Source: Apostichopus japonicus (taxonomy: Eukaryota; Echinodermata; Holothuroidea; Aspidochirotida; Stichopodidae). From it: a stretch of 64,000 nt of DNA. The DNA lies in NCBI RefSeq assembly GCF_037975245.1, contig NC_092569.1:19826001-19890000 (forward strand), written 5' to 3'. Shown here in pieces: positions 5,107 to 62,307 of the stretch (its first letter is position 1; every line of letters begins with the position of its first letter). Below the pieces are notes generated by a model. The model had not been told where the DNA came from. It made no database searches and saw only the letters and a program-made list of their open reading frames with translations. Both the position numbers and the translations under genes were made by a program.

Positions 5107-5113
5107 ACTTACC
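5107..5113 (-). other. Candidate 5' UTR splice donor of gene A1
   Basis: A strong GAG|GTAAGT donor on the minus strand lies upstream of the signal-peptide exon and is kept in the second copy at 62715-62721. Paired with the CTCATCAG acceptor before the ATG, it would remove an intron within the 5' UTR. The upstream limit of this exon is not determinable by eye. Confidence 0.4.
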
Positions 5114-40744: not shown

Positions 40745-41585
40745 CTATTCAGAACTGCTCTCCTTGAGTGTAGCATACATTATAGTGTTAGAAGCAGAAT
40801 GATGACAACATGAACTAACATTCTTAGTTGCAGTCACACTTTCCCTTTGCAAAGAACTAGGACCCTGAAGCTGTTCGAAAAGTCGTTTAGCATTTAGAAA
40901 TGTCGAATTAACATCATTACTATCTGTGGAGTGAATATCATTGATTCCCCCACGAGCTGTCGGGTCCCTTTCAATATGTTCTTCCCCTTCTTTATTTAGA
41001 AAAACTATCTTCTTTTTCCGACATTTAAGAGTGTCTGTTTCATAGTTGAGTTTATCTTGCGTTGGGCAATCTGTCACACCTGGTATTTGATGCGCTCTAC
41101 ATACCTCAATATCAACGACAGCGTAAGGCTCTATGAGTTCATGAAAGCATGCTGAACTAGTTTCGCCCTTCTCGTCTTCTTCAATATTTTGAAGTTCATC
41201 AACCTCTTCATGATCCTGAGAAGATGGAGAATTAGTTGATTCCAATATTTCTTTTACTGATTGGTCAAAGAATTGACATGAAGCTCCTCTATATGTCTTG
41301 TATGTCACCACACCAGGTTCAACTTCAAGATTGCTATCTTCAATTGCAATATAAGTTGAAGGTTGATCCATATCGACAGGAGCAGATATTTTGAAGGATC
41401 CCACGTGATAAGAATGTCTAACACAGCATCTATTCCTTTCCATTGTAATTTCATCTTCATTATCTACATTAAAGGCGTCACAGTTATTTATTCCGCTACC
41501 TGTGCGTGACAAATACGAATCCAGTGGACACTCCCGTGCTCGTCGCCACCATCGTGTTATGCTCCTTAAAACACCCGGGCGGCAT
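40745..41585 (-). CDS. Gene B exon: cytoplasmic tail
   Basis: Opens at TATTCACAG in phase 2 and is open for about 279 residues to a TGA/TAA-type stop at 40745. It starts with a basic, Trp-rich juxtamembrane part (ITRWWRRAREC). An acidic Glu/Asp-rich middle follows. The ITIM-like motifs are STYIAI in the first third and IMYATL about nine residues from the end. There are no hydrophobic segments inside the exon. The open frame extends upstream into the intron, which is why a longer ORF is seen. Confidence 0.8.
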
Positions 41586-44500
41586 CTGTGAATAGTAATA
41601 TGGAAAAAAAAACATGAAACAAGACAAACACAATAAATAACCCTCAAACTAAAACAGTACATATATCTTTGAAAATAGCCCCTCGTCTTTCACTTCCTAT
41701 ATCCCTCGGGCCAATATTTAACCTGCACCAACACAATGACAGTTGTAACGCCATAATTCTTCTTAACATTTTTTAGCTTTGCAGCATAGGCATTGGTACT
41801 ACAGGAATAATGTTCAAGACAGGGATTATTCAGATGATCGGCTGTTTTGGTAGAACCTTGTTCAAATCCTCCCTATATTCACAGTTTTTTTTGGTAAGTT
41901 TTTTCATTCTGTAATTTTCCCAATGTTGCTGTTTGCTTTTATAAAAAAAAATACTGCATAATGATTATGGAGCTTCCTAGAGTTATCCAGTCCCCAAACT
42001 ATGGCGTCGAGCTCATGCGTATGACAAACGTTTGACATAGACCATTCTATACTTACTTGGAAATGAAATAGACCGAGCCAATAACCGACATGCACCCGAG
42101 GATAAATGACGTAGAAGATATAAGGAAATAAATTCCACCGAAACCGCTTTCTGTAAATTAAAATGATTCACCAGATCAAACCAAATAAATTGGATACTGG
42201 ATATTTCGTGAACCAACATAAGTTTCATTTTACACTGCCATTAACAGTTTATTCAAAACGATATAACTTTTTTGTCTTATTGAATTTAATGCTGTAAGCT
42301 AATTACAATTGTTTAGCCATAGAATTTTGAATCGAGACAATAACTCAAATAATAATAATTTTATACCGCAATAACTTGTTAATCATTAAATGTAAGATAA
42401 GAGATAAGATAAGATAAGATAAGATAAGATAAGATAAGATAAGATAAGATAAGATAAGATAAGATAAGATAAGATAAGATAAGATAAGATAAGATAAGAT
42501 AAGATAAGATAAGATAAGATAAGATAAACTGTATTGCATCCGATAGGGAAATTACATGCTTGCAGATAAAACAGTAAGATATAAAAACGATACTATACAA
42601 CAATAAGAGAACAAACAGCAGGACAATAAAAGCATAAGAAATGCTAATAACAATGAACGGGAACAGATGGGCCGAAGCTCACAGAATGGCAAGGAATAAA
42701 AAGTATAAACAAATCACAAACGGTAAATATGATAAGAACCCAATGAAAGAAGGAAAGACAAAGGCAAGAGATTAGCGATTAAAAGATGCATTAAAAATTC
42801 TAACAGCTTGTCCCATGAAAGATGAGGGGCAACGATTAGTATGAGCCTTCGGAGGTCTCATCCTCCCACTACGAGGGATAATACAATTATTTAATGGAGC
42901 GTGGAGAGGGTGATCGATATCCTTGAGAACTGAATGAAGCTTATCATCAACGCGACTATCAAAGACCTCGTCAACCATTGGCAAGCGTTTCCCAACAGCC
43001 CTACCTGCCCGTATAACAGTATCATCTAACACTTTCTTGGATGTCTTATTTATGTTACCAACCCAGGAAGTTATGCGGTATGACCAAACACTACTAATAA
43101 TAGAGTTGTAAAAAAATGGATAAAATGTTCTGGTTCACGTCAAAAGAGACGTTTGGCAACATACTCAACATGTGCATCCCACTTTAGCTGATCATCCATA
43201 ACTACACCCAAATATTTGTACTCAGTTACCCTATCCACTGTCTTACTGTCAATGACCACAGGTTCGGGCACTATCTTGTTCGCTCTCCGGAAGTCTATAA
43301 TGAGTTCCTTCATCTTGCTGACGTTAAGATGGAGATAATTCCTGTCGCATTCAGCAACAAAATTGGCAATTTGTTCACGGTAGATCCGGTCATCGTCATT
43401 TTTAATCCGGCCAACGAGAGCAGTGTCATCCGCGAACTTGATGAGCGGACAGCTGAGGTCAGTGGAGCGTATTCCGGAGGTATACAGAGTGAATAGGAAT
43501 GGTGCTAACACAGTGCCCTGTGGTGCTCCAGTGCTACATTCCATAATGTCAGATACAACATCACGACCGATACGTACAAATTGTGAGCGGTTAGTGAGAT
43601 AGTCCAATACCCATCGAACCAAAGCATGTGGCACATCATCAGATCCAAGTAAAACGTTAGCTAAAATATGAGGTTGCATCGTATTAAAAGCAGATGAAAA
43701 ATCAAAGAACATGATGCGAGCGGAGACTTTACCAGATTTAGAGTCTTCGAGATGGGAGTATAATGTGTCCAATGTGAACAGGAGTGCATCGTCAGTGTTG
43801 CGTCCCTTCCTATATGCGAACTGGTGATCATCCATTAGGTTTACAGTTAGCCTTTTGATATACTGCAATATAAATCTTTCACATGATTTCATGGCTACGG
43901 AAGTGAGCGCCACCGGACGAAGATCATTCATGCTGGTGATAGTTGACTTTTTGGGCACCGGAATAATACAGTCTTGTTTTCATAGGCGAGGGATGCACTG
44001 GGTCCTAAAGCACAAGTTGAAAATGTGGGTGAAGATATATGACAATTGATGGTTACATAGTTTCAAAACTCGCGGTGAGAGTTTGTCCGGTCCAGCTGAT
44101 TTTGATGCGTTCAGCCGGGAGAAATCTCGAAGTACATCATCCTCTGTTATGGTTAGGAAAGGCGCGGACTCCCCGGAAGTTACTCTGAGAATACGTTCGA
44201 TTTCATCCGTGAAATCGTGGCAATCGAACCGGTTATAAAATGAGTTCAGTTGATTGGCGTAGGTTTGGGAGTATTCTGGTAATGAGCAATGCTTCGAGCT
44301 ACCGTTAGTATAACCGCTCATCAAACGCATGCCGGTCCACACATCCCTAATGTTGTTTGTTGTGAAATTATTTTCGATTTTCCGTTTATAAGCATCTTTC
44401 TCTTGTTTGATTACAGAGTTAATCTCCTTCTGAATTAGCTTCAAGTCATTTTTAGAACCCGTTCTGAATATCAGTTTCTTCTTATTGATCAACTGTTTCA

Positions 44501-47500
44501 CCCTTTTAGTAATCCATGGCTTGTTATTGGGGTAACATTTGACTTTCTTCGTGGGAATGATGGCGTCCTCACAAAATTTGATATAGGAGCTGACGGTGTC
44601 CGTTAATTCGTGAATATCATCGGCAGTGTCAACAAACATTTTCCAGTCCGTGCGATCAAAACAGTCTTGGAGTTGATCCAGGGCATCATCCGACCATTGT
44701 TTGATTGTAATTACCCGCGGCTTTTCACGCTGGACGACAGGCCTGTACTTTGGTAACAGGAGAACGAGGTCATTGTCGGCTTCACCAAGCTTAGTCAACT
44801 GGGATGATACATAAGCGTCTTTGACGTTGGTGTAACAAAGGTCCAGAGTCGATTCCCCCCGTGTTGGACAATTGACGTGTTGATAAACCGTAATCCCGGG
44901 TGTTTCATTGATCCATGGTTGAAATCTCCATTAACCACAACAAGGGCATCAGGGGCTTTAGCTTCCAAATCTTGAATGGCCTTAATCAACTCAGCACTAC
45001 CCGCCTTGGCAACGGACTTGTCCGGTATGTAAACAGTACAGACTAAAACGTGTGAGAACTCCCGCGGTAGATAAAATGGCCGTACAGAAACAGTTAACAT
45101 TTCCAGGTGGGGGGTGCAAACATAGTCCTTTCTGTACACATTATTCGGGTGACACCACTTCTGGTTGACGTAAACACACACACCTCCTCCACTGCATTTA
45201 CCAGCCGCTTCCAAATCCCTGTCACCACGTACCAGTTGGAATCCGTCGATGTTAACATGATCGTCACTATGGTTACCTGTCAACCATGTCTCTGTGAACG
45301 ACACAATACAAGTATTCCTGAAGTCCGACAAATATCTCACACTCGTACAAAGTTCATCCATCTTGTTGCTGAGAGATTGAACATTTCCCATTATGATTGA
45401 GGGTAAATAAGGCCGGTTCTTACACTGACTATTCCTTCGTTTGACACCCCCTGCTTTCCCACGCTTTCGTCGCCTCATCTCTTTTGGTAATAGCATATCT
45501 GGTAGTCCTGTACCGACTGCGCATCTAGTACCGATTGCGCGAAATTCCGATGGAGTGTAATAGAAGACTGTCCGGGGGCCATTATGAAAAACCTCGCCAT
45601 TTCCGTGGGAAACGATACAAACAGTCCCAAACACAACCAACAAAACGATAAACATCCACTTAGAGCACATATTGACAGCATTCGGTGGATAAAACAGCGA
45701 CAATAGAACGATGAAACATGGAATTCGAGAGGAAACTGCAAGCTGTGTCGCCACGCGAGCAGCGCCACATATATAGATGTACCACATTCAATTACAAATG
45801 GAATTATGCAAAATAATCATTTTCAAAATATTATATTTTGGTTGGAAACGACAGTACTTGGAACGTGATCCTGCAACATTTCTGGTATGTTTAAAAGTCA
45901 TAAATCGGACCCTTTTCTTAAAGTTCACCCTTTATACCAAACCCAAAGTATTATGTACACATATATATATATTGTTTCTTGTTATAATTTCAAGGACTTG
46001 AATAAATGTGTTTCAAACTCAACGACCTTTTATACATATTTCATGTAACATTTATATAGCAAATAAGAAAAGGGATTATTTAAGAATAGGTTGCAATATA
46101 CAAGAAGGTAAATATTGTTTACCAACAGTGGCAGCAAAACTTGGTACAGATCAACATCAAGTGTGAACATAATAGCAAATACTTATGATACTGTACGAGC
46201 ACGATTAAAATGTCACCATTACACTATTTTACCACAATGTTGAAGAGGATAGGTCAAAATTCATCCAAATCCTATGAAATGTCGAATTGAAAGTGAAATA
46301 GTAAGAAAAAGTTGAACTTACTCCTCTTAGCAGCCTTTTGTTTCCAAATTGCAATTCTTCCACTGCCTCCGCATTTTTCGGCTCCCGAACAAAATACACC
46401 ATTTTCAAAGCAAGACTTCTTGTGCACATCTTTAGAAGGGAGTACGTCTTCGCACAAGCATTCGTTACCTCCAATGAGACCGTTGAATGAATGTGACATA
46501 CATTTACGTTGACATAACTCTAAAGTTAAATCCGGAAATTTACCACCGAAATGGAAGATTTCTGAACTATCATTTGAAGAATGATGAAAGCAGCCCTGGT
46601 ATTGATCGTTTTAATATGTAAATAAATATGAAATATGCAAACACGTAAATTAGATATTCGGATATTCATTTAATGAAGTAATACATGTTGATCAATGAAA
46701 TCGAATATGAAATACAGACTCAATGACGAACGCACAAGAAAACGACACTGTGAATTGAAATAGTTCACGATGTTCCTTGAGTAGTTTATCCGAGGTAAAA
46801 ACTCAATAACAGACTCCAGAAAGACAACATAATAACATTGTTAATATACAATTTGTAAAAACATACAAAATTACGACCTCACAATGGATTGCTACGTCAT
46901 CGTTTAATTGAGTTCTACACGGTGTTCTTTCATTGTGTAATATGAAGTACTAACTCAGAAATGGACTCCAGAAGACATAGTTATGACAAATTGAAATTGA
47001 GTATTACATGCTGTTCTTTGATGCAGAATCTAGAAATACAGATGCCCTAACGACCTCCCCAGTAATCATTACGTTATCGTTTAAACGAGTACGACACGGT
47101 GTTCTTTCATTATGTTTTTTGAAGTACTAACTCAGAAATGGAATATAAACAATGTCAAGCTTTGATGTAATATGGAGAATAATAAAATCGAAACTAATTG
47201 ACATTGTTAACATGTGAAAGTATATGCTGCCTAAAATCCAAGCTGTAACATTGCCGTGGTAACTTAGCAAACTTTACAATGAGCAAAGTTAGTGTTTATT
47301 TTATTGGGCTTGAAGATTAATTTAATAACTTTTTTATTTCCGTTAATGTTACTTTATTGAATGTATTTGCTTTTTTTTATTTGCATGATAGAAATTTTGG
47401 AAGTTGGTGTAAGATGGTTGCCAAGACAAATGAAGATAAAATGAGAACAATTAAGTCACGTGATATAATTGTCCACAGGCTATTACATCGTTTTACGGCG

Positions 47501-48727
47501 TATGATATATCGTATAAGTGACCATAGGAAAACCTAATAGAATATAACAGTATCAATATTTTCTCTTCTGAAGTGCTTTGGTATCTTAAATGAAGATGAG
47601 TCATTTTCTTTCCATAAGCATATAAGAAATGTTGGTTTAGAGGTATGCAAACCCTATCCTTAAAATGTTGACAACAGTCGCTGTCTTTATATCCTTATTC
47701 TTATTCTTAAGTTTTTCTTCTTTTTTTTTCTTTTTGGGGAGTCTCCTACTTTGTTAAGCCTTGCAGGCTTTATAGGAGACTTCCCGTCACACTGTAAATT
47801 GTGATGAAACAAATAAATATACAAATACAAAATATCCTACCTTGATACACGGCCAGAGCCTGTTCTCCGCCACATTTCACAGCTCCCGCACAGAATGTAT
47901 TGCACTCTTTGTCAGAAACATTTGTGAGTTTTTCATATAGGCCGTCATCCCCGTTTCTGCAGTGGCAATATGTTCCATTTTCCAAGCCGAAGTGTGTATA
48001 ACTCCCAACGGCACAAAACCGAGAGCAATTTGAATGGCTTAAATCACTTTGATAGAGCCGTAATTCAAATTTTTCGTCAAAGTTACCAGAAAAGCATCCT
48101 AAGTAGTCTCTGTCTGTTTAAGAACAAACAAAAATGATCTTGGTCGGATTGGGTGAAGCGATTTACGAAAATAATATGATGACATCGAAAAGAAAAACTG
48201 GTTTACTGAGGTCACGAAATGGGTCAGCCAACATTTCTCAAAAAGTTAACCGTCTTGAGAATTTTAATTGATTTACACTATTAGTTTTATCTTAAGTTGA
48301 AAATGTGCACGTCTTTTCTGCACGTCTTCCTCTTCTATGTCCTAAATGCTCTTCAAGACAAGAAGCATTTTCGTTAATGTTTAGCATGATTATACCTTTA
48401 TATAAACTTTAGCCCTGTTTACGCATTGATGAAACACTGAATAGTAGGAGGTATACCGTTCTGGAATTCTCTTTGTCTAGAAATTATAGCAATTTAAATG
48501 TTCCTTATTCTAACATAGTTGAAATATAATGATGTTGAAAAGAAACGCATTGTGAATTTCAGAGGAATTCGCCCCGTATCTTACTATGAAGGTTGTATTG
48601 TAGATTCATTATGTAACACAGAACGAGTTCATATTTTTCAGACAACAAAAGTGAGCTCACCTGCAAAACACAGCATTGTTTCACACAAAATCACAATTAT
48701 AAATACTTCAGTGCTTGAGAAACACAT
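40745..48727 (-). CDS. Gene B: WSC-domain membrane receptor with ITIM-like tail (whole gene span)
   Basis: Exons, in transcript order: 48727-48661 (signal peptide), 48113-47841 (WSC 1), 46606-46322 (WSC 2), 42150-42057 (membrane helix), 41585-40745 (cytoplasmic tail and stop). The first joins are phase 1 and the helix-tail join is phase 2, all compatible. This gives about 519 residues if no stalk exon was missed. WSC domains are Cys-rich putative carbohydrate-binding modules known from yeast stress sensors, polycystin-1 and Kremen. The tail has two motifs fitting (I/V/L/S)xYxx(L/V/I): STYIAI and, close to the C-terminus, IMYATL. It also has YAVV after a Glu-Pro. Such motifs recruit SH2 phosphatases in vertebrate inhibitory receptors, and that role is inferred here. 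A broken LINE in sense orientation fills most of the intron between WSC 2 and the helix. The acceptor of WSC 2 looks mutated. Confidence 0.7.
42057..42150 (-). CDS. Gene B exon: transmembrane helix
   Basis: A TAATTTACAG acceptor opens a 94-nt exon (phase 1 in, phase 2 out) encoding a hydrophobic stretch, GGIYFLISSTSFILGCMSV then Ile-Gly-Ser-Val-Tyr-Phe, ending CCAA|GTAAGT. The join to the tail exon recreates a Lys codon, giving Ser-Lys-Cys-Arg-Pro at the cytoplasmic border. Its length equals that of the A1/A2 helix exons. Confidence 0.75.
42393..42528. repeat. (AAGAT)n microsatellite at LINE 3' tail
   Basis: About 27 tandem copies of AAGAT. On the minus strand these are TTATC units lying directly after the LINE's 3' UTR (…CAATACAGTTTATCTTATC). 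L2/CR1-type elements end in short tandem repeats rather than poly-A, so this is best read as an expanded retrotransposon tail. Confidence 0.9.
42393..45787 (-). mobile_element. Broken L2/CR1-like non-LTR retrotransposon
   Basis: On the minus strand, an endonuclease part (about 45430-44870; GNVQSLSNKMDEL, SFTETWL, SGGGVCVYVN, RPFYLPREF, NGDFNHG) is followed by a reverse transcriptase part (about 44100-43140; FDFSSAFNTMQP, GAPQGTVLAPFLFTLYTSG, FADDTALVG, YKYLGVVMD). A C-terminal part follows at 43032-42772 (DDTVIRAGRAVGKRLP). It is clearly dead: a frameshift near a C-run at 44855, a TGA at 43980-43982 in place of the Trp usually found in LWK, and a further slip in a T-run near 43110. The endonuclease catalytic SDH reads ADN. 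It lies in sense orientation within the gene B intron. The upstream residues before RRRKRG may not belong to the element. Confidence 0.88.
46322..46606 (-). CDS. Gene B exon: WSC domain 2 (acceptor CG instead of AG)
   Basis: Encodes YQGCFHH, then LCQRKCMSHSFNGLIGGNECLCE, and ends ENGVFCSGAEKCGGSGRIAI, a full WSC domain without stops. It leaves in phase 1 at AGGA|GTAAGT. By alignment to the other WSC exons the exon should begin at 46606, but the two bases before it read CG, not AG. The nearest AG is inside the exon (ACCAG|GGC) and would break the phase. Skipping this exon would keep the frame, because it is phase 1-1. Confidence 0.75.
47841..48113 (-). CDS. Gene B exon: WSC domain 1
   Basis: A phase 1-1 exon from TTCTTAAACAG to CAAG|GTAGGA encoding one whole WSC domain. 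Landmarks in order: YLGCFSG, CSRFC, FGLENGTYCHC, ECNTFCAGAVKCGGEQALAVY. All eight usual cysteines appear present, and Asn-Cys-Ser, Asn-Gly-Thr and Asn-Val-Ser are glycosylation candidates. Confidence 0.88.
48661..48727 (-). CDS. Gene B exon: signal peptide
   Basis: An ATG followed by CFSSTEVFIIVILCETMLCFA, a hydrophobic secretory signal, ends in phase 1 at GCAG|GTGAGC. Joined to the WSC 1 exon it makes Asp at the junction followed by Arg-Asp-Tyr-Leu-Gly-Cys. It overlaps a longer open frame on the opposite strand that has no family features. Confidence 0.65.
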
Positions 48728-51700
48728 GATCAAATGTATCCATGTAATCCTGTGCAAAGATTATGACTTCAATTCCACCATAATATGGTACAGAAGAAAC
48801 TGTCTCATTTCAATCATGAACAGTTACTCGTACAGTGTGCCTCATGCCGTACTTGCTACAAACCAACCTTCAAAGTTGTCTTCGTTGATTAAGAACATAA
48901 CATATATGAGAATATGCCTTTATCGACTGCACGCTAACCTATACCGAAACCAAAAGCATCGATATGCTTCATTAGTATCCTGTATAATGGTATATTTAAA
49001 GAGAATATTAAGATATATCGGTTATAAAGAAACCGAAACATGCTTACATGCATTTCAGTGATTTAGAAATATATGCTACATTATTAAAATGAATAGCTGT
49101 GTATTCTATACAATTCTTATAGCAAGGCCTGCATTGAAAAACCGAACAGAAAGTATTACCTGAGATAACACTCGCATGCCTAACACTTTATACTGTTTTA
49201 GTTTGCTACAGTAATTGACACTGATATCGTAGTCCTGCGGATTATTTTAGCTTATTCGCTTCTCAATCTTTCTTGTATATGTGCACCCGGTTTATAGCCT
49301 TATCATTGAAACTCAGTTTAAAGATTTATCAGTTAAAAGTGCGAGAAACCGTTAATCAGTTAAAACTGAATGTGTGTAAAAATTTCTTAACATGTGTTAT
49401 TTCCTACCGAGAAAGAATTAACAACAGAATGCCGAAACACACGAAGCGGCGCATAACGACTGATATGTGTTAACTCCTTACCAAGACAGGATTTGATTGA
49501 TTCGTGGCAATTTGCCATTTTGCCAATTTGCCACAAGTCGCTTATGTGGGTTTCTACTGTCCTGGCCAATACGATATGATAGGACAATGGCAGTCCTGTA
49601 AAGTGATTCGACTTATTAGATTCTACATTGTTATGTCATGGTTTTCCTTAACCTATCCGGGAAATTTTAATATCGTGTTACAGTTGAAAGAATCCGAAAA
49701 ACATGTTTTGGCACGGGGGACGATGTGTGTGGTGGCCGTTGGTGTCCAAAGTCCTCGGAAACTTGATTTCGGTGTTTTCTTCTTTATTGGTTACTGAACT
49801 CGTTTTCAGAAATATGCTGTTTTAATTGAACACCGTTTCCTCTTTATATTAAAACATGGGATATTAAAATATCTAAAGGTGAATATTGCCCTCATTTCCA
49901 TTTGAAGTTTAACTGAGATTGACATTTGCCTATTGCAAAGAAGAAAAGAAATCACAATAAATATAAAAACCTTTATTTGAAGGAACTACATAGTGAAGTA
50001 AACCGGCCCATCGCTTGATTGCTCAACATTCAGTGACAACTTCCGTGCGTAATAATTTTGTCCTCGCCACGGAGGTTTGTGGACGTAAAGTTTGTTATCA
50101 AGAAAATGCATATTGTCATGCATATTGAAATCCCTAAACTGTCTCACGAAACAATTTGAACTTGATAATTTGTTATGCCATTTCATCATATCATATCAAT
50201 ATCATTAACAGTAGTTTTACAATAGTTATCTTCTGTCGTTGCTGATTTCCAGATCTCTGCGTTAGGTTGTAAATTGATATGGTATCATTATTTTCGATTT
50301 TTCGTTGTGATTACGCATTTGCAAGAGGACAGTTCCATGGGGTCAAATTCAAATACGGATTTACCATATTGTTATGTAGTAACTTCAAAGTTGTATCAAT
50401 ACCGTTCTATACTGAGTTCAATATATCGCGAGCGGCTCATCACAGTTAATTTACTCCATTACTCCTATTGATAGCGGTAAGGAAATGTATAGATTAGAGG
50501 AGGACCTTGCCACATTACAATATTCTGTGTCAGTTAGCTATTTCGTCTACATCTGCCCATGTAGGCAGATGCTTTCAAAAATTACATTCCTAAAACAAGT
50601 GTTTGTATTAATCATTGAAATTGTGACATCTGGAATATTAGCTCAATCTGTCAATGCTCGTTGCATTTTGAATTTTAACAATTTCTCTTTGAGTAGAAAT
50701 AGTAGTTTTCTTTTCTCTGTAGATAACTGTTTTACAGGAAATAAGGAAAGACGAAAGCCTTGTTTACATTACTTATAATCATACAGTCTGCTGTTCACAG
50801 ATGCATTCACAAATTATCGCTAAATTTAAACCAGAAATGCAAAAGTGCACGGTGCTTATGTAAATAGTCGTGCGTTTGTGGTATCTGAGACTAGAAGGTT
50901 GCGGTCTTTAGATATCATGGTTCCTAAAGTTTCCACGATTTTATCTATGTCACTGAAATGAAACGACCTCTCAATTGTATGTTTAAATTCAATGTATGTT
51001 TAAATTTAAATTCATTTCAAATAGTGAATTGTACCATCTATCCGTATTTATGCACCGGCTAATTAGTTGATATGTATTCGTGAGTTTCCTTAATTTGTTG
51101 TAAGATTAAGGGTTTAAAATGTTTGATTTTATTTCCCACTTTCACATTATTCCAAACAAGACCAAACATTTAAAAGGAAGAAAAAGATAATCTTTCAACA
51201 ATTGTGAAAAACAGAATACACACTTTGCTAATAAACTATAAATATATCAATTAATGAACTCGTCCATCCAGACCTTTTCATATCGATGTACATTATTATC
51301 ATGCATGACAATAACCCTTGACCTTATCCAGGAAGAACCCCCGACAAAGTGCAGTGATTGTTTGAAATAAACATCAAATATATATCAACTGTTTCAGGCA
51401 TTTCCTCAGGTCATCATTATTATAATCCAAAGTAATAACCGTTGACCTTCGCGAGGCTTGTGATGATGTGATGTGATTGCTGGTGATGATGTGATGCGAT
51501 TGGTTGAGAGAAATAGTACTGCAACCAATCTTACGTTTTAACTGTAAAATAGTAAAGAAGGCGAGAGATCCAGGTTTGAATCATCCTTCCCTTTGGCTGC
51601 AGATAACTGTATTTGCCCTTTGCCCTCCTAATCCTGGTAGTGGGTTCTTCTTCTCACGTGAAGCACCTATGTACAACATATGAGATATTATTGAGATATC

Positions 51701-52519
51701 TTGTCACAATCAAAGCGTTACAGACAAGTACGAGTAAACACACATTAACAAGCATACCGTCATGGCTTTTTTTTACGATACAAATCAAAACCAAACATTC
51801 AGATCTTCGACATATAAAGTGCAAACAAAAAATAGTTGTAGTGTTCAGCTCTTGTTAAATGAGTATAAACCAATTTATCTCTCCACGTTCTAGTCCTCAT
51901 GTTGATGGAATTGATATATTCATTGATAACAGTGCAATACCTCTTGTCGGTCAATCGCGCTATAAATTTCTCTGTGTTTATCTTGAGTGCCAACGGAAGT
52001 TGTAGCATAATATTGGCACTCATATTTAGACAACATTTGACAGTGTTGTTGTTAGATTTATTGGTGATAGGGGTAAATATCCATGAGCAAAACAAGATAC
52101 ATGTTAAATCTCCAATAAAGTTTGTATGATGATTTTTTTTTAAATTTAATGTGTTAATATATCGCACTCCCTAAAATAGAACCAACGTTTAAGTGACTTC
52201 CTGTTTGTCACGAAACACTGTTAGTGTAGAGAAGAGGGCAACGAAAGTTAATTTATTTGTTGCAGACAATAATAGTATTGAATGAAACCAAAAGATAATC
52301 ATAACAATGTCAGTAACATATTGAAAGAAAATTAAAGAAAGGGGTTGATAAGTTAATTTCATACTGATGATAAAATAGCTCCTGTATATTGCTATAAACT
52401 GCCACGTATCGAAACCGATGTTGTACATTAAACCGACATATTTTATTAGTAAACTGTGAATCTGCTGCGATTCAGGTAAAGGAAGAAGGAAAATAAAAAC
52501 AGTAAGAAAGAGAGTAAAA
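48728..52519. other. No gene recognised
   Basis: Upstream flank of gene B. Several open frames of 60-180 codons occur but none has family features or consistent exon borders. A short GATGTGATG run near 51465 recalls the minisatellite at 23 kb. Confidence 0.45.
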
Positions 52520-52690
52520 AATAAACAGTGCTATTGTTGAGTGAATAAAACGACGTAATTGAAAGCAATGAAGCCTGTCATTTGGGAGGTCATGGGTTCG
52601 ATCCTCGGCATGCCCAATTAAGGTGGGTGATTTTTTTGATCCAGGCGAAGTTCCCATCTGAACTGGCCTTAAAAATTGTTTACAATTTAA
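52520..52690 (+). mobile_element. tRNA-derived SINE-like element
   Basis: A perfect Pol III box B-like GGTTCGATCC (52595-52604) lies in the context GGGAGGTCATGGGTTCGATCCTCGGCATGCCC, typical of tRNA-derived SINE heads. A SINE-like body follows (GATCCAGGCGAAGTTCCCATCTGAACTGGCC). The box A half is degenerate, and no intact tRNA fold is apparent. Confidence 0.55.
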
Positions 52691-52921
52691 TAATTATCCA
52701 AGACTGTAAATCGGAAGTGTAAGTAATAACCCATTTATGGATTAGGCATACGTGGCTGCCTAGCGTTGTAAAGTAACTGCCTTCCGTGTCGATATATACA
52801 CTCGCTTCAATCTTATATACTTAAAGTTATAACTAAGCGAAATCAGCTATAACACTAAACTCCACTTCGTGTTCTCAATAACGGTAACAGTGGGAAAAAA
52901 AACTCCTCGTACATTTCGTGT

Positions 52922-53207
52922 TTAGATATCATATAACCCTAATCCATACGCATCAAGTGAGTCAGCTTCCTGTGAAGGTCCCGTCTCCCTTCCTACCGTT
53001 ACATTGCCTGTATCTTGTAAGGAATGATCTATTGATTCACAAAGAGTTCCATGATATGATTCAACAACATACTCCACGTCGGTCATATCATCCGGGTTCT
53101 CAGCTAAATATGAATGACGTACATCTATATTTGGTCTTCTTTCGTTATCATATTTAATTGTCGGTTTGGGGCGCATCTGCGTAAGGTACCAACGTGAAAT
53201 CGTAGAT
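52922..53207 (-). CDS. Gene C exon: cytoplasmic tail
   Basis: Opens at GCCACCAG in phase 2 and is open for about 94 residues to a stop. It begins basic (SRWYLTQMRPKP), then has TIKYDNERRP, HSYLAENP, DVEYVVES and ends GLGLYDI. It is shorter than the gene B tail and shares no obvious sequence with it beyond the basic juxtamembrane start and frequent tyrosines. Confidence 0.7.
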
Positions 53208-53580
53208 CTGGTGGCAAAATGTAAGATTAATGTAGATAAACTAATATTAAAGAGAGAGAATAAATACACCAAGTCTTCATGACATTACGGCATGCAGAGG
53301 TGCGCTCGAAGTTATGTCAAAGTGAAATGGTGTACCCAATGTAGAGATATAAGACTATTTGGTCATTTTGATGGATCACAAAAAGTTGAACACGCGCATT
53401 ATCTATCTGTGTTGACATATTCTGATGTAGACACTCAATTCTTATATAAACTATTCCAAATTTATCTTATTTGATTTTTTCCTTGATGTAGGATTTTTTC
53501 GGTCACATTAAAATATTGTTCATTCATACTTAGTAAAGATTCCTAAATCCTATTGGTCCGTTCAGGTCAGCTGACCGTGG

Positions 53581-54558
53581 TTAATCCTGTGAGTAACGCA
53601 CGGTAAAATTACCGGTGGATGAATACAATTGTTACCATGTTTTGTCGTCTGCTTTGCTGAGCTATTGAAATTCATCAAAAACACAAAAACTTGTTCAAAA
53701 GTCTTGCAAGATGCCATCACAGGTAAAGGACGCGAAACCATGGATCCGCACTCGAGTCTAGGTCAAAGTGTAGGCTGCACAGCTGTTGCCTCCAACAATG
53801 ACATTAACGTTACTGCTGCTGTTAGGGCTGAAACGTCTAACATGTCCAAACTGTTTTCCAAATGTTCTTTCCAAAGTCCTGCGAATGTTTACTTCCAAAA
53901 TTCATAGTAATATCCGTATTAAAACACCAAACAGTTGTGGATGCTTTGAGTTTAAATATATCCAGTATCTGTCCGTAATTAAATGTTCGCAAGGTCGTTA
54001 TGTTGCTCATAGTGTTATAAAGTTAAAGTTAAACGACCGCAGTGCCAAGCACTGTGTAGTGTGTACGTTCAAGTGAGTGTACGTGTTCAATACAAGGCCT
54101 ACTATGTTATCGTATGGCTGTATACCATACGTACATGTTTGTCCCTAGAATGGTTGCTATGGGAACCAGAAGCTGTAGGGCATTGATATGATGAAGCCAA
54201 TTAGTAATTGTTTGTAGTTCCTTGTTATTGAGACCTTTCAAAAATAGTTTTATGGCCGCAATATTGCCAAAAATTAGTTAAATATTATTATGGTTCATCT
54301 TTTATGAATGACAGCCTTTCAAAGACGTTTCCTTTATCATTATTCACTATCGTTCAGTATTACTTTATAATTGCACATGTACATTAATGTTATGCTGGTT
54401 GTTAATCGTTAATTCGACTTACGGGGCATCACTTTAATAAATCTTCGGTTATATTTAACCAAAAATGTTTTTTTTTATGATTTTTCCCCCACACAAATGG
54501 TAGTGTATGAATGAACGGGGTTAATCAACGGTCTAGCGTGCGTTACTCACAGGATTAA
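53581..54558. mobile_element. Candidate element with 22-bp perfect inverted ends
   Basis: Bases 53581-53602 (TTAATCCTGTGAGTAACGCA plus CG) are exactly reverse-complemented at 54537-54558. The interior, about 930 bases, has no recognised coding region. It lies in the gene C intron between helix and tail. No clear target duplication could be placed. Confidence 0.5.
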
Positions 54559-54636
54559 TGCACGATCGGGGGATAATGCAAGCGATGCACGAGGGCGGAG
54601 CCCGAGTGCATCCACGCTAGACCGTTGATTAACCCC
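54517..54636. repeat. 24-bp perfect inverted repeat with inner hairpin
   Basis: 54517-54540 is the exact reverse complement of 54613-54636, enclosing about 70 bases. The interior includes a second palindrome, GATGCACGAGGG…CCCGAGTGCATC. It overlaps the right end of the 22-bp inverted pair, so two palindromic systems are nested. Confidence 0.85.
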
Positions 54637-54922
54637 TTATTGAAAACCTCACAGACGCAAGGAAACTCGTTCGGGAGCTGCGTGATTTCCTTGGGGTAAA
54701 CTCATGCCGCATGTATATGCCAACAGATGACAACAACAGTCATGTTTTTTTCAATAAATATTTGCAAGGATTGAGTATCAGCATGCCTATTCATTAGTCT
54801 ATTTCATTGTTGAAAACGTAACCCTTGCTCTTTCTCTATATATCGTGGTATTATGACATTGCGTCATGTAGGATAGATAGAGGAACGGTGATGGGTCCCA
54901 TCTCTCACACTGGACCCGGGGC

Positions 54923-55928
54923 GCGAATATTTTTTTCCCAAACTGAACTGACACTGAAATTATTTCCTCGATTCTGATTGGTTATCAGCGAGCACGTGAT
55001 ATACTTTAGTTTTCAACATGGATCCTCCATAATCTGTCGATATCAGTATGATCAACACAATCATATTCAAGATATTAACATTAGCAACTTTCCAGAACTT
55101 TTAGTAGGTATATTTGAACGAAAGTATAGAGTGAAGCAACTATTCCCAACTACTGCGCCCATTATAGGCAGTCCTCGTTCGTTTGTTTACTCGCTTGACT
55201 CCGCTCTACGCAACACATACATGTAATGTAGCCTATTGTACTGTGTATAGTATACAACACAATAACACACAGTGCATTTGTAATTGTATACATGTAGCCG
55301 ATGTACATATGTACCGTGGTGTTTGGTTGCGATACTTTTAGTTTTATAATCATAAATTCAAAATGTATTCAGTCAATGAATCATGATAGGCCTATTCGAA
55401 TATGTAGTGGCCATGAAGACGCGCGAGCGAGTGTGTGTCAGCCAGTGAGTGTACACAAACATGGCATTTGACGATATGTCTGTGTCTTTTGACTTGTTAA
55501 CTAGTTGTATATAGCATTATAACCTATACGTACGTAACCACATATGTTTACCTGCACAATTAGAAGTTCTTATACATGGTGACATAGTAGGCCTGCATTA
55601 ACCGTATATACGTATTCGTACTAGTTCGTACGAGATCTCAAATTCACTAATATAGGCCCTACCGCCCTTGCAGTAGCTCTTGATAACTGGAAGCCTCACA
55701 TTGTATCTACATGTAGGCACACTTAGGCCTACATACTTTAACTTAGCCTGTATATGGCGTACACACGTATTTTTGACATGATGCGGCCCATGAGGATTGG
55801 TATGATCAACACTAACAGTGTCACATACATTCATTCATAAACGCCGACTACCATTCCGGTTTTGATCAGCCAATCAGAATCGAGGAAATAATTTCAGTGT
55901 CAGTTCAGTTTGGGAAAAAAATATTCGC
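54923..55928. mobile_element. Long-TIR element with 9-bp target duplication (MULE-like)
   Basis: Starts GCGAATATTTTTTTCCC and ends with its inverse GGGAAAAAAATATTCGC. The inverted similarity continues inward for about 60 bases or more (…CTGACACTGAAATTATTTCC, CGATTCTGATTGG). Directly outside both ends is the 9-mer ACCCGGGGC (54914-54922 and 55929-55937). Long TIRs plus a 9-bp duplication are typical of Mutator-like elements. No transposase frame is visible, so it is non-autonomous. Confidence 0.85.
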
Positions 55929-56023
55929 ACCCGGGGCTTCTGAATCCTTAGCATTACACAATTGATATATTATTATTGTTATAACTAGTTTATTTTATGA
56001 TATAGTAGAATATCGATATTTAC

Positions 56024-56120
56024 CTGCACAATACAATTCCGGCAATCCCACCAATTAACACTCCTTCAACAAACAGGAACGCTGTGATGAAATACCTGCT
56101 GGAAGTCACGACAGCAGGAT
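56024..56120 (-). CDS. Gene C exon: transmembrane helix
   Basis: Opens at CATTAGCACAG in phase 1 and ends GCAG|GTAAAT in phase 2. It encodes YFITAFLFVEGVLIGGIAGI then Val-Leu-Cys, a membrane helix with one acidic residue. The join rebuilds an Arg codon before Ser-Thr-Ile-Ser-Arg of the tail. Confidence 0.75.
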
Positions 56121-56198
56121 CTGTGCTAATGAACAATACAAGCTTCCAGAAGGTAAATACAAATAAATAAAACGAGTAGTACATAACCTACACACACA

Positions 56199-56653
56199 CA
56201 GGGGAGTAAGAGCTTGGGGGCAAAACATCAGAGGGGCACTTTCTCAACCACCACTCGTTATGCTATATACGATACACACCGGCCATGTCACTTAAATATA
56301 TATAATGTGTTAGTATGCTATCAATACTAGTATGGTGCACGTGACTCTATCAACCTGCATACTGTACTACATACTGTACTTCTGTCCATCCATAATTTAG
56401 AACTTTCCGAAAAAATCCTCCTGTGTTCATTACTTGAACAAAAGTCTTTAGCAACCTCGGTTAAATCCTTAGCATGTACAGTTTAAAGATAAATAATTAA
56501 AATAAAATATTAAAATTAACAAACGCTTAAGATATCCAAAAGACAGTTCTTCATCAAAGGGGAAAATATTTATTTACCAGTAGGGCACATTTGCTATTTT
56601 GAAAAAAAAGTGGGGGAGCACGTGCCCCTAGTGCCCCCTGGTCCTACCCCCTG
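56199..56653. mobile_element. hAT-like MITE in a CA repeat
   Basis: Left end CAGGGGAGTAAGAGC…GGGGGCA and right end the imperfect inverse TGCCCCCTGGTCCTACCCCCTG. Flanks are CACACACA on both sides, compatible with an 8-bp duplication but also simply the host CA repeat. Non-coding, 455 bases, in the gene C intron between stalk and helix exons. Confidence 0.65.
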
Positions 56654-57009
56654 CACACACATATGTATATGTATACCATAAAATACACACACACACACAC
56701 CTATGTATTATATATATATATAGCAAAGATTCAGTTGTTCATTTCCTGCTGTAATACTGCTCAATGCATGAAAGTAGAGCAAGTGCATAATATAGTATAC
56801 GTAGCCTATATTTTATGGTAACCTACATCACGTTGCTACTCGAGGTTGACGGTCAATGCGGCGATCATCATACAACAGCATAGTTAAGCATGATCATTCT
56901 CGTTGGTTAACAATTTTCTCGCTTTGATAATTTGCTTAGGTCATTGTAAATTGGATTCGTTAACCTGTAACCAACTAATATACAATCCCACGTGAAAGGT
57001 AATACATAC

Positions 57010-57066
57010 CTTGAGATGGAGTTGCTTCGGTTGTCAAGTTGACCTCAACAGGAATCGAGTATGGTG
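57010..57066 (-). CDS. Gene C exon: stalk
   Basis: A small 57-nt exon from CTATGTTAG to CAAG|GTATGT, phase 1-1. It encodes a Thr/Pro-rich spacer (PYSIPVEVNLTTEATPSQ). The Asn-Leu-Thr is a glycosylation candidate. It occupies the same place as the Ser/Thr exons in A1/A2. Confidence 0.7.
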
Positions 57067-57290
57067 CTAACATAGAAAAGAGAAAAATTTATAGTAAACA
57101 GAACATCTGATTCAAACTATTTCAACATTTCCTATTTAAGTAAGTAAATTTGAAGCAATTTTCACCCCGAGGAAATGTTTTCAATGTAAAATATGTCACG
57201 TCACATAACGGTTTTTCCAAGCTCTAAATTCGTGATAATTATATGACTGGGGCAATTTTGTAATATAACCACGAATAGCAATAGACTCAC

Positions 57291-57590
57291 TTATACTTTT
57301 TAGTTCCTTAATGTGGTCCCAGATTGCAACATATCCATAACCTCCACAAGTCTCCCCACCTGGACAAGTTATTCCTTCCTCTACACATTGGTGGTCTTCA
57401 AGAAACTGAGAGTTGTTTCCGTCGCGCGGAGACTCGAAGCTACAGAAACATTTGTTTCCTTCTGCTAAGCCAATGGAAGGATAGGCTTGACAACGTTCCA
57501 TGCATGATCTAAGAGTTAGTTCGGTAATTGATCCCATGAAATGAAAGTCGTGGTCAGTCGTATGGTTCAAGCATCCAAAATAAGTAAAAT
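57291..57590 (-). CDS. Gene C exon: WSC domain 2
   Basis: Opens at TTCCTACAG and ends ATAA|GTGAGT, phase 1-1, 300 nt. It contains YFGCLNHTTD, CMERCQAYPSIGLAEGNKCF, CVEEGITCPGGETCGGYGYV and AIWD, an intact WSC domain with all cysteines. Confidence 0.87.
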
Positions 57591-58073
57591 CTGTAGGAAA
57601 ACAAAACAGGCCAAGTAAATATTTCAGACATTGCAGTCCTGGATTCTGCTGTAAATTTAATTTTAAAAGAAGGTTTGTTTTTAATTGTGTTCTAAGCCGA
57701 TATTGTCTACATACGATGTATTGTTCGTATATCTTCAAGACTCAACTTGATGTGTGTTCCTGGTACAGTACTGTGATTCCTACGAACACTATATTTAAAC
57801 AGAAACATCTTTGAGTAACTTGCAACAACAACATTGGAGATCTTCGTGACGTGTTTGAAAGAGTTTATTTAATAATAATGTGTTCATAGTTCTTAAAGAA
57901 CATCGGGTCGACCTCATGTGGACAAAAGCATAAAAGACAAAGGTGCAGTGACTCACAGTAGCATCAAAGCGATGCATTTGTATTTTGGTTTTTATGTTTT
58001 TGCTCTTAATAATGTCAATTTAAATGTTTTGTCATATTTAACCCACCTTATGTTTTTATATTTAACAACTTAC

Positions 58074-58343
58074 TAGTGTAGACCGCCATTGCCTGTTTAC
58101 CACCACACGTTGGTCCACCTGAACACAAAGTATCGCACCGTGTATCTGTAACAGTATTGTAAGCCTGGTATTGACTTCGATCCGTCCCACAATATCAGTA
58201 AGATCCATACTGAAGCCCCAATAAAGTATAGGTATCCACGTCGCATATTCGGGCACAAAGTGAGACCGTTAGATCGGGTCGGATTTGTCTTACAGCAAGT
58301 ACACTGGAATGGTTACTGCTATAGCAACCAAGATAGTACCCAC
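58074..58343 (-). pseudogene. Gene C exon: WSC domain 1 with TGA at a Cys position
   Basis: Opens at CTACCAACAG and ends ACTA|GTAAGT, phase 1-1. It reads GGYYLGCYSS, SLCARICDV, LQYGSY-stop-YCGTDRSQ, CDTLCSGGPTCGGKQAMAVY. The stop codon (58197-58195) sits where gene B has Cys in TYCHC, one base away from TGC or TGT. Everything after the stop remains a good WSC frame. Confidence 0.75.
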
Positions 58344-59572
58344 CTGTTGGTAGAATGAAACATGCGGTCACAGAATCATCCTTAACACAAATTCAAAAAA
58401 GGTATTGTAGTAACATGAATACGTTAACAAGTAACATTCACATTTAGTTTGTTATTTTTACGAATAGATTTACTAGTTCAGCACAAAAACCCGTTACAAA
58501 TTCTTTATGGATTTGTGTTAATTATTAATATTTAACGTTTATAAAGTGAATGAATGTTACTGATGTGAACAGCGAAACAGACAGTAAATCATTAGCTTGC
58601 CTATATAGCCAAAATATTAATTATAATATCGCACAAGGAAATAATGCCTTCTGTCAAGGGTGACCGACGAGGTCTGAATAATTCCACATACATTAAGTTT
58701 ACGGCTGCTTTTTGGCAGAAGACTGTAATTGCTCTGGCTGGAAATCGTTTCTTCGACAGTTTCAATCCAAACGAGCCATTAATTTTGCTTTCAAAATTAA
58801 GAAATACTCCTTTAAAAACTACATTTATTGGTGTAATCAGCATTTCAGCGGTGCAGAGTTTCTTGTTTGCCCCTCTTTTTCGTTGCTTTGCTCTAGCATG
58901 TTTATATCAAGCCATTGGAGTTGTGTATGACATTTCGATGTCATTTATTATCCTGACATGTAAGACAACAAAACTATGGCTGCAAAATACATTTGTGAAT
59001 CAAATTTGGTGAAAATAGCATTCAAAAGATCTAGTCTAAACCTATGCTGTTTGTCGGTAATAAATCAATTTAATCAATAAAATCTTACTCTGACTGAATA
59101 ATGGCGATTGTTTCAAAAGATAACTTGTTTCCTTTTCTTTTTTTAAATATCATCAATTTTGAGTTGAATATAATAATACAAACATGATTGTCAATTAGTA
59201 GCAAATGTTTCTTGTTTATTGCTTAGTTAGTTCGTGATATTTCTTATCAACGTGATTGAAAGAACTTTACACTAAATAAATAAGACAACAGAAACTGTCG
59301 TTGTTCGTTGTTTCAAAATACTGCTCCACGGACGATCTGCCGATTTAAAGCCAAACGAACACCGTCTTCCATATTTAAACGAAATAGTTAATCGGTAGTT
59401 GCCAATTCCCGCGCATGCGTACCGATTACGAGCAATGACTTTTAAAGTCTCCTCAACGTACATTATACTCGTCTTGATTAATGTCACATTAAATAAACAA
59501 ACTACCATCTCATTTGGATAAATAACGTAACAAATGCAATTTATTTGTATGTGAGTGTGTGTTACATTGAGT

Positions 59573-59939
59573 CTACTCCATCGTTGCGTATACTTCGTCT
59601 ACATTGAAATATATAATAGAATCGCAATCCGCATCATCTCTATCAGCTTTGTCGACGGTCGACGCAGATTCAGAACCACACGTTTTGTCCCGATGAGATC
59701 TACTGGTATTAACACGATCATCCTTTTTATTTAAAGACAGTGACTTCAGTTTTAGAGATTTCTTTAACTCTGCTTTACCCACAGTATCTTGCATCGCAGA
59801 CGGATTTGTATCATCTGCTTGGTAATAAGTAGAATCTCCAGGTTCGTCTACTGCTGCTGGTGAGGTGTCAGTCAAAACTTTAGGAGGATCTCGCTGAAAC
59901 TTCGATATGAAGAAACTTGTTGCATTTATAAGCTTCGGG
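59573..59939 (-). CDS. Gene A2 exon 5: cytoplasmic tail
   Basis: Opens at CTTAATTTCTGTCAG in phase 2. Start residues Ser-Pro-Lys-Leu-Ile-Asn, then a polar tail with Lys-rich LKKSLKLKSLSLNKKDD, an acidic DKADRDDADCDS, and the C-terminal tyrosine pair IIYFNV and YATM before the stop. The Lys codon AAA in PPKVL is the position of the TAA in A1. Confidence 0.75.
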
Positions 59940-62307
59940 CTGACAGAAATTAAGAGGGATATAAAGGTAGAATATCGTGTTGGGAAGTTCGTTTCGTGAA
60001 AGACGTTAGACGTTATTCTGATTACTAAATCCAGGAGGTTAGACATATTTCGGTCCATGATTTAATGTTTACACAATGAAGTTAATTACGATATATGATC
60101 TACAATATTAAACATTCCGTGTGGAGATATTTATATATTATTTACCACAATTCGACGAAGCATGAGCAGATATGATGAATAAAAGACACATATTTTAGTA
60201 TTGTATATGAATTTACACAGTACCTTAGTGTTAGATATGATGTTACCGATCCAGCTGCAAGGCCAATGCACAGAATTCCAATGACAGCAATGAAGAGAAA
60301 CACTGCACCGTTTCCTCCTGATTAATTTAAGAGAACCATGATTATGATAACAGTTTCTATCCAAAGAAAGCTAATATGACTACACTACATTATACACTTC
60401 ATTACTTGCATCTGTTTATTACTTTCGTTCTTTTCAGTAGCAACTGTTTAACACATAAAAAGATATGTGATAGCTGTTGGTGTTATTTTACCATGAACGG
60501 ATGATTACTACGTAAGATAAATGGATTAAAATCAAATGAAGACATTGGTAAACAAAGAATCTGCGTGCGAAATGACAAGAAGATATTAACTGGAGGACAA
60601 AACAGTACAACTGAGGGCGATTTAAGGGAAAAAATCAATTAATGAAAATTATTATGTTAAGCTATCATCGCAAGATAGTTATGTTAAATTAACATAGAAA
60701 GTTCGTCCTCAAAGATAAATTTGAATATATAGCAGAAAGTTGTTGTATATCATAGTCGCAAAATACAAAGGTTAAACTAACACTATCACACGTAAGCACA
60801 GAATGACAGGAAACAAGATAATTTTACTTTCAGTTTCCAAATAGATTGAAATGTATATTCCTAGAAGTAACAGTATACAACTTGTTTGAAGTATATAAAA
60901 TGAAAGGGACTTTGAAGAAGCCATTTGATGCAGTCAAAATAATGAATTTCTTGATCATTTCAAAATGACAACAAAATAAAAAAAAACTAGATGAAATGCA
61001 ATTCGCCCTACAATTTCCAAATGAGTCATGTAGGCCTTCTACAAAATTCGGCAATATTTGTGAATTTACATAATCCTTTTAACAAATTATTGCTTTTCTG
61101 TCATATTCGTAGGCAAAGTGAAAGTGAAATGTTCATCGTAATAAAAATACAACAACATGTTATGTGTTTTTACATATTTATGTGTCCTTATGTGTACTTA
61201 CTTGCAGTGATGTATGACTCATTATAATTGGTATTAACTAACAAGTTCTGTGTAGACTTCTGACTTAATGGATCTGAAAGGAAAAAAAGGAGTGTATAGA
61301 AAAATACTGTTGTGAAAGCTGCTTGTCTGCCTAACTACTAGTTTGATGATTAATCACATATACTTTATTTAATTAGTACACTTGTAAAATCAACACTAAA
61401 TTATAAGGTTAAGGCTTATCAATAACATAATGCTGACGGCCCCATGTATTGCTTATCATATAAAGACAATAGACATGCGTTGGTACGTGTTTTTATTATG
61501 CTAGACCTAAACTAGGGATGAAACGTTATTCAGCCCACGGTGATGTTAAGAAGATCTTTGGATTTTAATACGGCAAAATAAGCTACAATGGTATGCTGTG
61601 GTATGTAGATTTCTACATGGCCCATTTGGCCCATGGTACTATTTGATTAAAAAAAAAGCCGAAGCTAAATTAAACTTAAAGATATATTACACTCATCAGC
61701 AGTGGTGGTTAGTAATTCATTTTCTGCTGAATTATTTTCTGACGTGAGACTGTTGGCTGATGACACAATTGCGGTTATCCATCCTTGGTCCGTGGTCCTT
61801 CCCTCACCTGCGTGTGAAGCAAAATCCAACTAGATATAACATATCCTTCATGTAAACACCTAACACACCTTACAACTATATGTTTGCCTTGAGTTTGGCA
61901 CAATCTGATAGTATGACACTGGACCGTTACAGAATCGAGAACAGATTATACACATATGCTAGCAGTTATACACGTCAATTGATTATATAATGAAGCAGTA
62001 AACATGAATCTTCTTTCACGTATATCTATTAGTGTGGGATCAGAATGATTCGATAAGAGTAGTCGGTATAGTTTTATCGATGTAAGTCTCTTAGACGATT
62101 GACTTTTATCCAGTTACAATGGAATGTTACATAGCTTTCATCAGAGCAAGGAATGCGTAAAATTCAACGACAAAATACAGACCACAAAACAACTCAAAGG
62201 CCTTAGGATTACTCAGTAATGAATAAATTGAAAGATGACAAACCTTTGATAAAGGAGTACGCGCTGACCAAACAAGCAGTTAGCAGTAAAATATGTTTGC
62301 TATTCAT
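59573..62307 (-). CDS. Gene A2: short ITIM-tailed single-pass receptor (whole gene span)
   Basis: Five exons: 62307-62244 (signal peptide), 61807-61691, 61273-61202 (ectodomain), 60317-60224 (membrane helix), 59939-59573 (tail). The total is 714 nt, an exact codon multiple, predicting 237 residues. All borders are GT/AG with matching phases. The ectodomain is only about 65 residues, Ser/Thr/Asn-rich, with glycosylation candidates and no WSC domain or cysteines. There is no room for a WSC exon between signal and ectodomain exons that I can see. The gene B and C transmembrane and tail exons have the same phase pattern, so A looks like a paralogue that lost its WSC domains. The tail ends with IIYFNV (ITIM-like; also a YxN context) and seven residues later YATM (YxxM, the PI3K p85-type motif). 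A poly-A signal AATAAA lies at 59545-59540, 28 bases past the stop. In copy A1 this signal is mutated. Function as a signalling receptor is inferred. Confidence 0.75.
60224..60317 (-). CDS. Gene A2 exon 4: transmembrane helix
   Basis: Opens at AATTAATCAG and ends CTAAG|GTACTG (phase 2). It encodes GNGAVFLFIAVIGILCIGLA followed by Ala-Gly-Ser-Val-Thr-Ser, a strong membrane helix. The donor GT here is GG in copy A1. Confidence 0.78.
61202..61273 (-). CDS. Gene A2 exon 3: membrane-proximal stalk
   Basis: Opens after TCCTTTCAG, phase 1-1, 72 nt, ending GCAA|GTAAGT. It encodes PLSQKSTQNLLVNTNYNESY plus Ile-Thr-Ala. The join makes an Arg before Gly-Asn-Gly-Ala of the helix exon. Confidence 0.65.
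61691..61807 (-). CDS. Gene A2 exon 2: Ser/Thr-rich ectodomain
   Basis: Opens at TCACACGCAG, phase 1-1, and ends GAGT|GTAATA. Residues include EGRTTDQGWITAIVSSANSL and ENNSAENELLTTTADE. Asn-Asn-Ser is a glycosylation candidate. No known domain. Confidence 0.6.
62244..62307 (-). CDS. Gene A2 exon 1: signal peptide
   Basis: The ATG is followed by NSKHILLLTACLVSA, a secretory signal, and the exon ends CAAAG|GTTTGT in phase 1. The acceptor CTCATCAG lies 12 bases before the ATG, and an upstream UTR donor (GAG|GTAAGT) is at 62715-62721. Confidence 0.65.

Follow-up and report, generated by a model that had tools for sequence, protein, structure and literature searches.

In vertebrates, the familiar receptors that signal through immunoreceptor tyrosine-based inhibitory motifs (ITIMs) have immunoglobulin or C-type lectin ectodomains, and the locus described here raises the question of whether a WSC ectodomain carries such a tail in a sea cucumber. 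The locus lies in a stretch of 64,000 nucleotides, hereafter the window, which we identify as DNA of Apostichopus japonicus or a very close relative because gene B and the exons of genes A2 and C match NCBI A. japonicus proteins. An initial annotation had outlined here a minus-strand cluster of receptor genes (B, C and A2, at 40745-62307) together with a further copy, A1; these coordinates are correct, and the NCBI model adds a short A2 coding exon further upstream (Table 1). The cluster around gene B is real but damaged, its neighbours being reduced or decaying, and B itself is a real and annotated receptor gene, as yet uncharacterised, whose ITIM-type tyrosines are conserved. Judged from sequence, the chances are about even that B is a WSC-ectodomain inhibitory receptor of the ITIM type, with at least one relative.

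Structure and ectodomain of gene B

Gene B is predicted to encode a single-pass type I receptor consisting of a signal peptide, a WSC domain, a second WSC domain, a helix and a 280-residue tail. Signal peptides and helices were called from reading and hydropathy only, and a scan for signal exons gave four minus-strand candidates, B's among them, while missing those of A2 and A1. The exon phases are as first described, with ectodomain exons in phase 1-1, a helix exon that exits in phase 2 (94 nt in A1, A2 and B, 97 nt in C) and then a single long tail exon. The joins of the WSC exons of B to its helix and tail, a point on which the initial interpretation depended, are present in the NCBI models P0001 and P0002. 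They are present also in P0004 of a relative, a 519-aa protein from a 2247-base contig in which a single frame holds helix, tail and both WSC matches. A protein search with reconstructed B lacking its second WSC domain found two A. japonicus NCBI proteins, one 82% identical over 96% of the query and the other 84% identical over 100%, and a profile search with four sequences returned six proteins, only P0006 being new.

Membership of the WSC family was judged with Pfam PF01822 at its curated cut-off of 27.8 bits. The profile search suggested at the outset places the first WSC domain of B (W1; 40 bits, E 4.7e-10), its second (W2; 33.3 bits, E 5.8e-8) and W2 of gene C (27.8 bits, exactly the cut-off) at or above this value; P0001 reaches 56.5 bits with two WSC stretches and P0004 63.6 bits. 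Eight cysteines were counted in each of the three window domains. Kringle, CUB and leucine-rich repeat (LRR) domains were not found by Pfam to E 1 in P0001, P0002 and P0004, where WSC is the sole ectodomain family.

Both B and C had been credited with two WSC domains each. Three of these four domains pass Pfam, but the acceptor of B W2 is missing and C W1 holds a TGA, and neither B nor C is an intact two-WSC gene in the window. At the expected phase-1 acceptor of B W2 no AG is present and a nearby CAG is out of frame; an in-frame internal acceptor, with the exon starting at 46468, retains part of W2 and yields a 473-aa protein. P0002 (473 aa) shows the same short-W2 pattern. Because the phase-1 AG is absent and the internal acceptor keeps the frame, window B appears either to make a short-W2 form or to be an allele that has lost the complete domain. 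Other copies have it in full, such as P0001, which shares 472 of 473 aligned residues with the 473-residue form of window B and has a further 47 residues in W2. Against the initial interpretation stand the stop in C and the lack of ITIMs in its tail, the lack of WSC in A and the broken A1. Among 28 differences between window B and its near copy P0002, 25 lie in the tail and three before it, and fast ectodomain evolution is thus not supported by this one pair.

Among solved structures, the WSC sequence matched 7pz2, which we take to be the yeast Wsc1 domain (E 1.2e-4), and Kremen1 chains (best E 0.0025), the latter being the animal chains matched (four of five rows). B could accordingly be a Kremen-like receptor in development or adhesion, unrelated to immunity, although we regard this as improbable. 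KREMEN1/2 are, like B, type I membrane proteins and have one WSC domain, and in Kremen1 the Kringle and WSC domains bind Dickkopf, with WSC helping in that contact (PMC5014086). Their ectodomain, however, is of Kringle-WSC-CUB type, whereas B lacks Kringle and CUB in the Pfam search above; further, the same paper gives a Kremen tail of 60-75 residues that can be replaced by a glycosylphosphatidylinositol linker for Wnt antagonism, whereas the tail of B is about 280 residues long and bears conserved motifs.

The intron of B between W2 and the helix holds remains of a non-long-terminal-repeat (non-LTR) retrotransposon. P0003, named 'jockey-like' by NCBI (PF00078), matches 43302-43835 at 97%, and its model runs from reverse transcriptase into the out-of-frame helix exon and the tail of B, which looks like an annotation fusion. 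Behind the element lies a tandem repeat (42402-42527, 5 bp x 25).

Tail tyrosines of gene B

The ITIM pattern used here is [ILVS]xYxx[ILV]. It is wider than the form I/V/LxYxxL/V printed in PMC8211107, outside which STYIAI would fall by its S and its final I. All motifs first named, STYIAI and IMYATL in B and IIYFNV with YATM in A2, are present in the motif scan; the general claim of tyrosine-motif tails holds for B (two ITIMs) and A2 (one) but not for C, which has none among seven tyrosines. As expected of an ITIM receptor, B is predicted to cross the membrane as a type I protein, and [ILVS]xYxx[ILV] occurs in its tail. By chance 0.38 ITIMs are expected in the B tail, and the observed two are reached in 5.3% of 10000 shuffles; the single ITIM of A2 is reached in 14.5%. 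Taken alone, two ITIMs in the B tail are therefore weak evidence, which is strengthened because the motifs are kept across divergent tails.

Conservation was read from an alignment of window B, P0004 and P0005, with orthology assumed and with the near copies P0001, P0002 and P0006 and the fusion P0003 excluded. The tails of P0004 and P0005 are only about 32-39% identical, and the persistence of motifs in divergent relatives, on which the initial interpretation had hinged, is seen in both: each keeps the two ITIMs (STYIAI and I-x-Y-x-x-[L/V]) and the EPYAV site, so that two ITIMs occur in all three tails compared. Invariant residues number 64 of 280, including five of the eight B tyrosines, none of which is touched by the 28 changes that separate P0002 from window B. 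Per hexamer, invariant positions amount to 6/6 for STYIAI, 5/6 each for HSYH and EPYAV, 3/6 for LNYE and 2/6 for IMYATL, the last in an alignment with gaps at the C-terminus, where all three sites still fit I-x-Y-x-x-[L/V]. Since they are kept in two tails of such low identity, the motifs of B look to be under selection. Separately, a tyrosine-free block, F-x-NA-x3-FEQL, is invariant in the three tails and has no Pfam match above cut-off.

Such motifs need not signal through phosphatases. Under the YxxPhi sorting rule they could be endocytic signals, and B a WSC scavenger or uptake receptor working through AP-2 without phosphatase signalling, which is a serious rival to ITIM signalling even if we hold it to be unlikely. 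YIAI, YATL, YAVV and YFNV fit YxxPhi as well as they fit the ITIM, and EPYAV, which lacks the ITIM residue at -2, is nevertheless among the best conserved sites. On the other hand, none of the six positions of STYIAI varies, although YxxPhi makes no demand on -2 and -1, the C-terminal site has I at -2 in each of the three tails compared, and A2 also has a YxxM that fits p85 docking.

Several observations weigh against an ITIM receptor. ITIMs usually come as close pairs, and the two of B lie 192 residues apart, each doubling as a YxxPhi sorting signal. Three of the eight B tyrosines are not conserved and have no invariant positions around them, and over all eight tyrosine hexamers invariance is only moderately enriched (391 of 20000 random placements are as high). 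The tail of C lacks an ITIM, and the tail homology of A2 and B is not significant (130 of 1000 shuffles do as well). Additionally, structure predictions were too poor in mean predicted local distance difference test score (pLDDT), at 29 for P0001 (four rows) and 43 for B W1 (three WSC rows).

For B as an inhibitory receptor, we infer a course in which one or two WSC (PAN/Apple-like) domains would bind an extracellular ligand, either a glycan or a protein, a Src-family kinase would phosphorylate the two ITIMs and further conserved tyrosines of the tail, and the phosphorylated tail would recruit an SH2 phosphatase, either an SHP homologue or SHIP, which may damp a co-engaged activating pathway in immune cells that would express B. 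The yeast Wsc1 domain has the PAN/Apple fold, which serves protein and carbohydrate binding (PMC9024836), and invertebrates such as the fruit fly and sea squirt are reported to have a single SHP homologue (PMC3296744). The closest precedent is the amphioxus (Branchiostoma belcheri) receptor BbLcLRR, like B a single-pass protein of an invertebrate deuterostome with an extracellular WSC domain and with ITIM or ITIM-like tyrosines on the cytoplasmic side, which in a human T cell line is phosphorylated by Lck and associates with SHIP1 and, to a lesser degree, SHP1/2 (PMC8211107). This receptor qualifies the early impression that no WSC ectodomain with such a tail had been described, its ITIM-type tyrosines being functional. 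Unlike in B, LRRs flank its WSC domain, and its sites DDYATV, HDYSEV and HDYDDP do not match those of B when compared by sites rather than whole tails. What would be new is thus a WSC-only ectodomain with an ITIM tail in a sea cucumber, WSC with working ITIMs being known from the amphioxus LRR-WSC receptor (PMC8211107).

Other known proteins share single features with B. A second invertebrate deuterostome lineage pairing WSC with conserved ITIMs would suggest that WSC has on more than one occasion served as a ligand-binding front for inhibitory signalling, and echinoderm immunology gains a concrete receptor with testable tyrosines. The ITIM receptors of vertebrates, such as Fc gamma RIIB, SIRP and Siglec, have immunoglobulin or lectin ectodomains, and the likeness seen to B is one of motif, the tail grammar [ILVS]xYxx[ILV]. 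REJ/PKD1 proteins are large, multidomain and multi-pass and, unlike B, are not known to have a single-pass ITIM tail, and WSCD1/2 are sulfotransferase-type proteins. In the sea urchin REJ/PKD1 proteins SpREJ6, 7 and 10, as in B, WSC occurs in an echinoderm membrane protein, and human PKD1 has it too (PMC1934368). A table of putative WSC domain-containing proteins of A. japonicus includes WSCD1/2 (PMC12784826), which resemble B in the name of the domain. Yeast Wsc1-type cell wall sensors, to which the 7pz2 match (E 1.2e-4) points, also place WSC outside a membrane-spanning sensor; these fungal sensors feed the cell wall integrity pathway, and the likeness noted here is one of ectodomain (PMC9024836). 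Among the matches listed, no echinoderm WSC-ITIM receptor was found in the open-licence literature.

Genes A and C beside gene B

The proposed kinship of the cluster genes holds in part. B and C are related in their ectodomains because 37 of 89 residues are identical in WSC1 and 33 of 88 in WSC2, and their tails suggest a modest homology (4 of 1000 shuffles reach the score, against 928 for A2 and C). WSC similarity and shared phases thus stand, but a WSC domain is absent from A, and the tails of A and B are not significantly similar; A is placed with B and C for its exon phases, its 94-nt helix exon, its position next to them and the splice into C that NCBI annotates.

A2 consists of signal peptide, short Ser/Thr/Asn-rich stalk, helix and tail, with WSC absent. 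The spliced A2 exons followed by the first WSC exon of C reproduce all 228 of 228 residues of NCBI P0009 (isoform X3); an annotated transcript therefore joins A2 and C. This transcript uses a donor within the A2 tail exon, enters C W1 and ends at the TGA of C, so dropping the ITIM tail and appending a broken WSC piece. RNA reads usually underlie NCBI models of this kind; the join is taken here as annotated. P0007 (247 aa) differs from A2 at 17 of 247 residues, keeps an ITIM (IIYFDV) and YATM, shows no WSC in Pfam and is either a paralogue or an allele; the P0008 model lacks most of the helix. A2 would accordingly be a WSC-less, short-stalk neighbour of B with one ITIM and a YxxM, whose transcript into C sheds the ITIM tail. 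A WSC-based paired-receptor system, in which B provides ITIM tails and A2-C splicing either keeps the ITIM and YxxM tail or swaps it for the WSC fragment of C, is conceivable though rather improbable; if true, it would be an ITIM receptor class on WSC ectodomains, tuned by splicing, in an echinoderm.

In C, W2, the stalk, the 97-nt helix exon and the tail are open, and W1 has seven cysteines and a stop in place of one of the eight expected in a WSC domain. A plain stop is preferred at this TGA, since no Rfam match was found (window at gathering scores; 50900-53300 with E to 1) and the NCBI model ends there; selenocysteine was rejected on that search, the coverage of invertebrate SECIS elements in Rfam not having been gauged. 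A 102-nt version of the helix exon is not open in the frame required. The mechanical scan showed no signal exon for C, a weak negative as the same scan missed those of A2 and A1, and no protein with the C tail surfaced in protein searches, none of which used that tail as query. An intron of C (54915-55936) holds a foldback or MITE-like element with 67-nt arms, 97% complementary and 888 nt apart.

A1 lies in a duplication of A2 (923-5925) made up of two blocks, one at 93.2% and one at 92.9%, followed by 471 aligned bases at 89.8%. It is a pseudogene as it stands because GG replaces the donor of its helix exon and an in-frame stop interrupts its tail. Between A1 and A2 there are 12 synonymous and 25 non-synonymous changes (dS 0.077, dN 0.047), and the ratio of about 0.6 suggests weak constraint. 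D is possibly the signal exon of another gene that continues beyond the window.

It is quite possible, though short of probable, that the cluster consists mostly of relics, with only B (and A2) working, A1, C and perhaps D decaying, and the 'family' partly an accident of neighbourhood. The lost donor and stop of A1, the weak A1/A2 constraint, the stop in C and its signal exon not seen in the weak scan, the missing W2 acceptor of B and the dissimilar tails of A2 and B all agree with this. Against it, NCBI A. japonicus models retain a two-WSC B and a full-tail A, and the A2-to-C join is annotated.

Coordinates and other features of the window

Table 1. Features of the receptor cluster and its surroundings, in window positions.
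Feature	Positions	Strand	Basis
A2 upstream coding exon, MTGIDK	62956..62973	-	Required to reproduce P0009
A2 signal peptide exon	62244..62319	-	Exon reading, NCBI model
A2 stalk exon 1, Ser/Thr/Asn rich	61691..61807	-	NCBI model
A2 stalk exon 2	61202..61273	-	Exon reading, NCBI model
A2 transmembrane helix exon, 94 nt	60224..60317	-	Exon reading, NCBI model
A2 tail exon, IIYFNV (ITIM) and YATM (YxxM); internal donor after 59779	59573..59939	-	Motif scan, NCBI model
C W1 exon, in-frame TGA at WSC cysteine; joined to A2 in P0009	58074..58343	-	Exon reading, NCBI model
C W2 exon, open, 8 Cys	57297..57590	-	Pfam E 3e-6
C stalk exon, phase 1-1	57010..57066	-	Exon reading
C transmembrane helix exon, 97 nt	56024..56120	-	Exon reading
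C tail exon, no ITIM; VRHSY common to B	52922..53240	-	Exon reading, motif scan
B exon 1, putative signal peptide MCFSSTEVFIIVILCETMLCFA, ends phase 1	48661..48727	-	Signal-exon scan; same start in NCBI P0001
B W1 exon, phase 1-1, 8 Cys	47841..48113	-	Pfam E 4.7e-10
B W2 exon, start inferred from P0001	46322..46606	-	Pfam; full W2 in P0001, partial in P0002
Non-LTR retrotransposon remains, B intron between W2 and helix	43140..45787	-	ORFs; P0003 match; remainder by adjacency
B transmembrane helix exon, 94 nt, phase 1 to 2	42057..42150	-	Exon reading
B cytoplasmic tail exon: VRHSYH, STYIAI, EPYAVVDI, IMYATL, stop	40745..41585	-	Motif scan, alignment
A1, about 93% duplicate of A2	2016..5354	-	Window self-comparison, exon reading
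D, lone candidate signal exon, phase-1 donor	678..744	-	Signal-exon scan

Between the receptor genes lies a gene with a fibrinogen C-terminal domain, at 33613-36290 (+) and 32393-32608, with Pfam E of 2.1e-28 and 2e-11 on two open reading frames (ORFs). Near it, a unit of 71-77 bp is repeated about three times, each copy with a stretch GAxGGAxxAGGATGGAC-GTAAG that resembles a DGGGWT exon end followed by a donor. A satellite at 25662-30396 has a 451 bp unit in 10.7 copies with 93% matches, the units holding a repeated minus-strand ORF of 80-117 codons, and further tandem repeats occur at 8797-9246 (6 bp x 75), 18175-18415 (AT x 120) and 22778-23737 (20 bp x 48).

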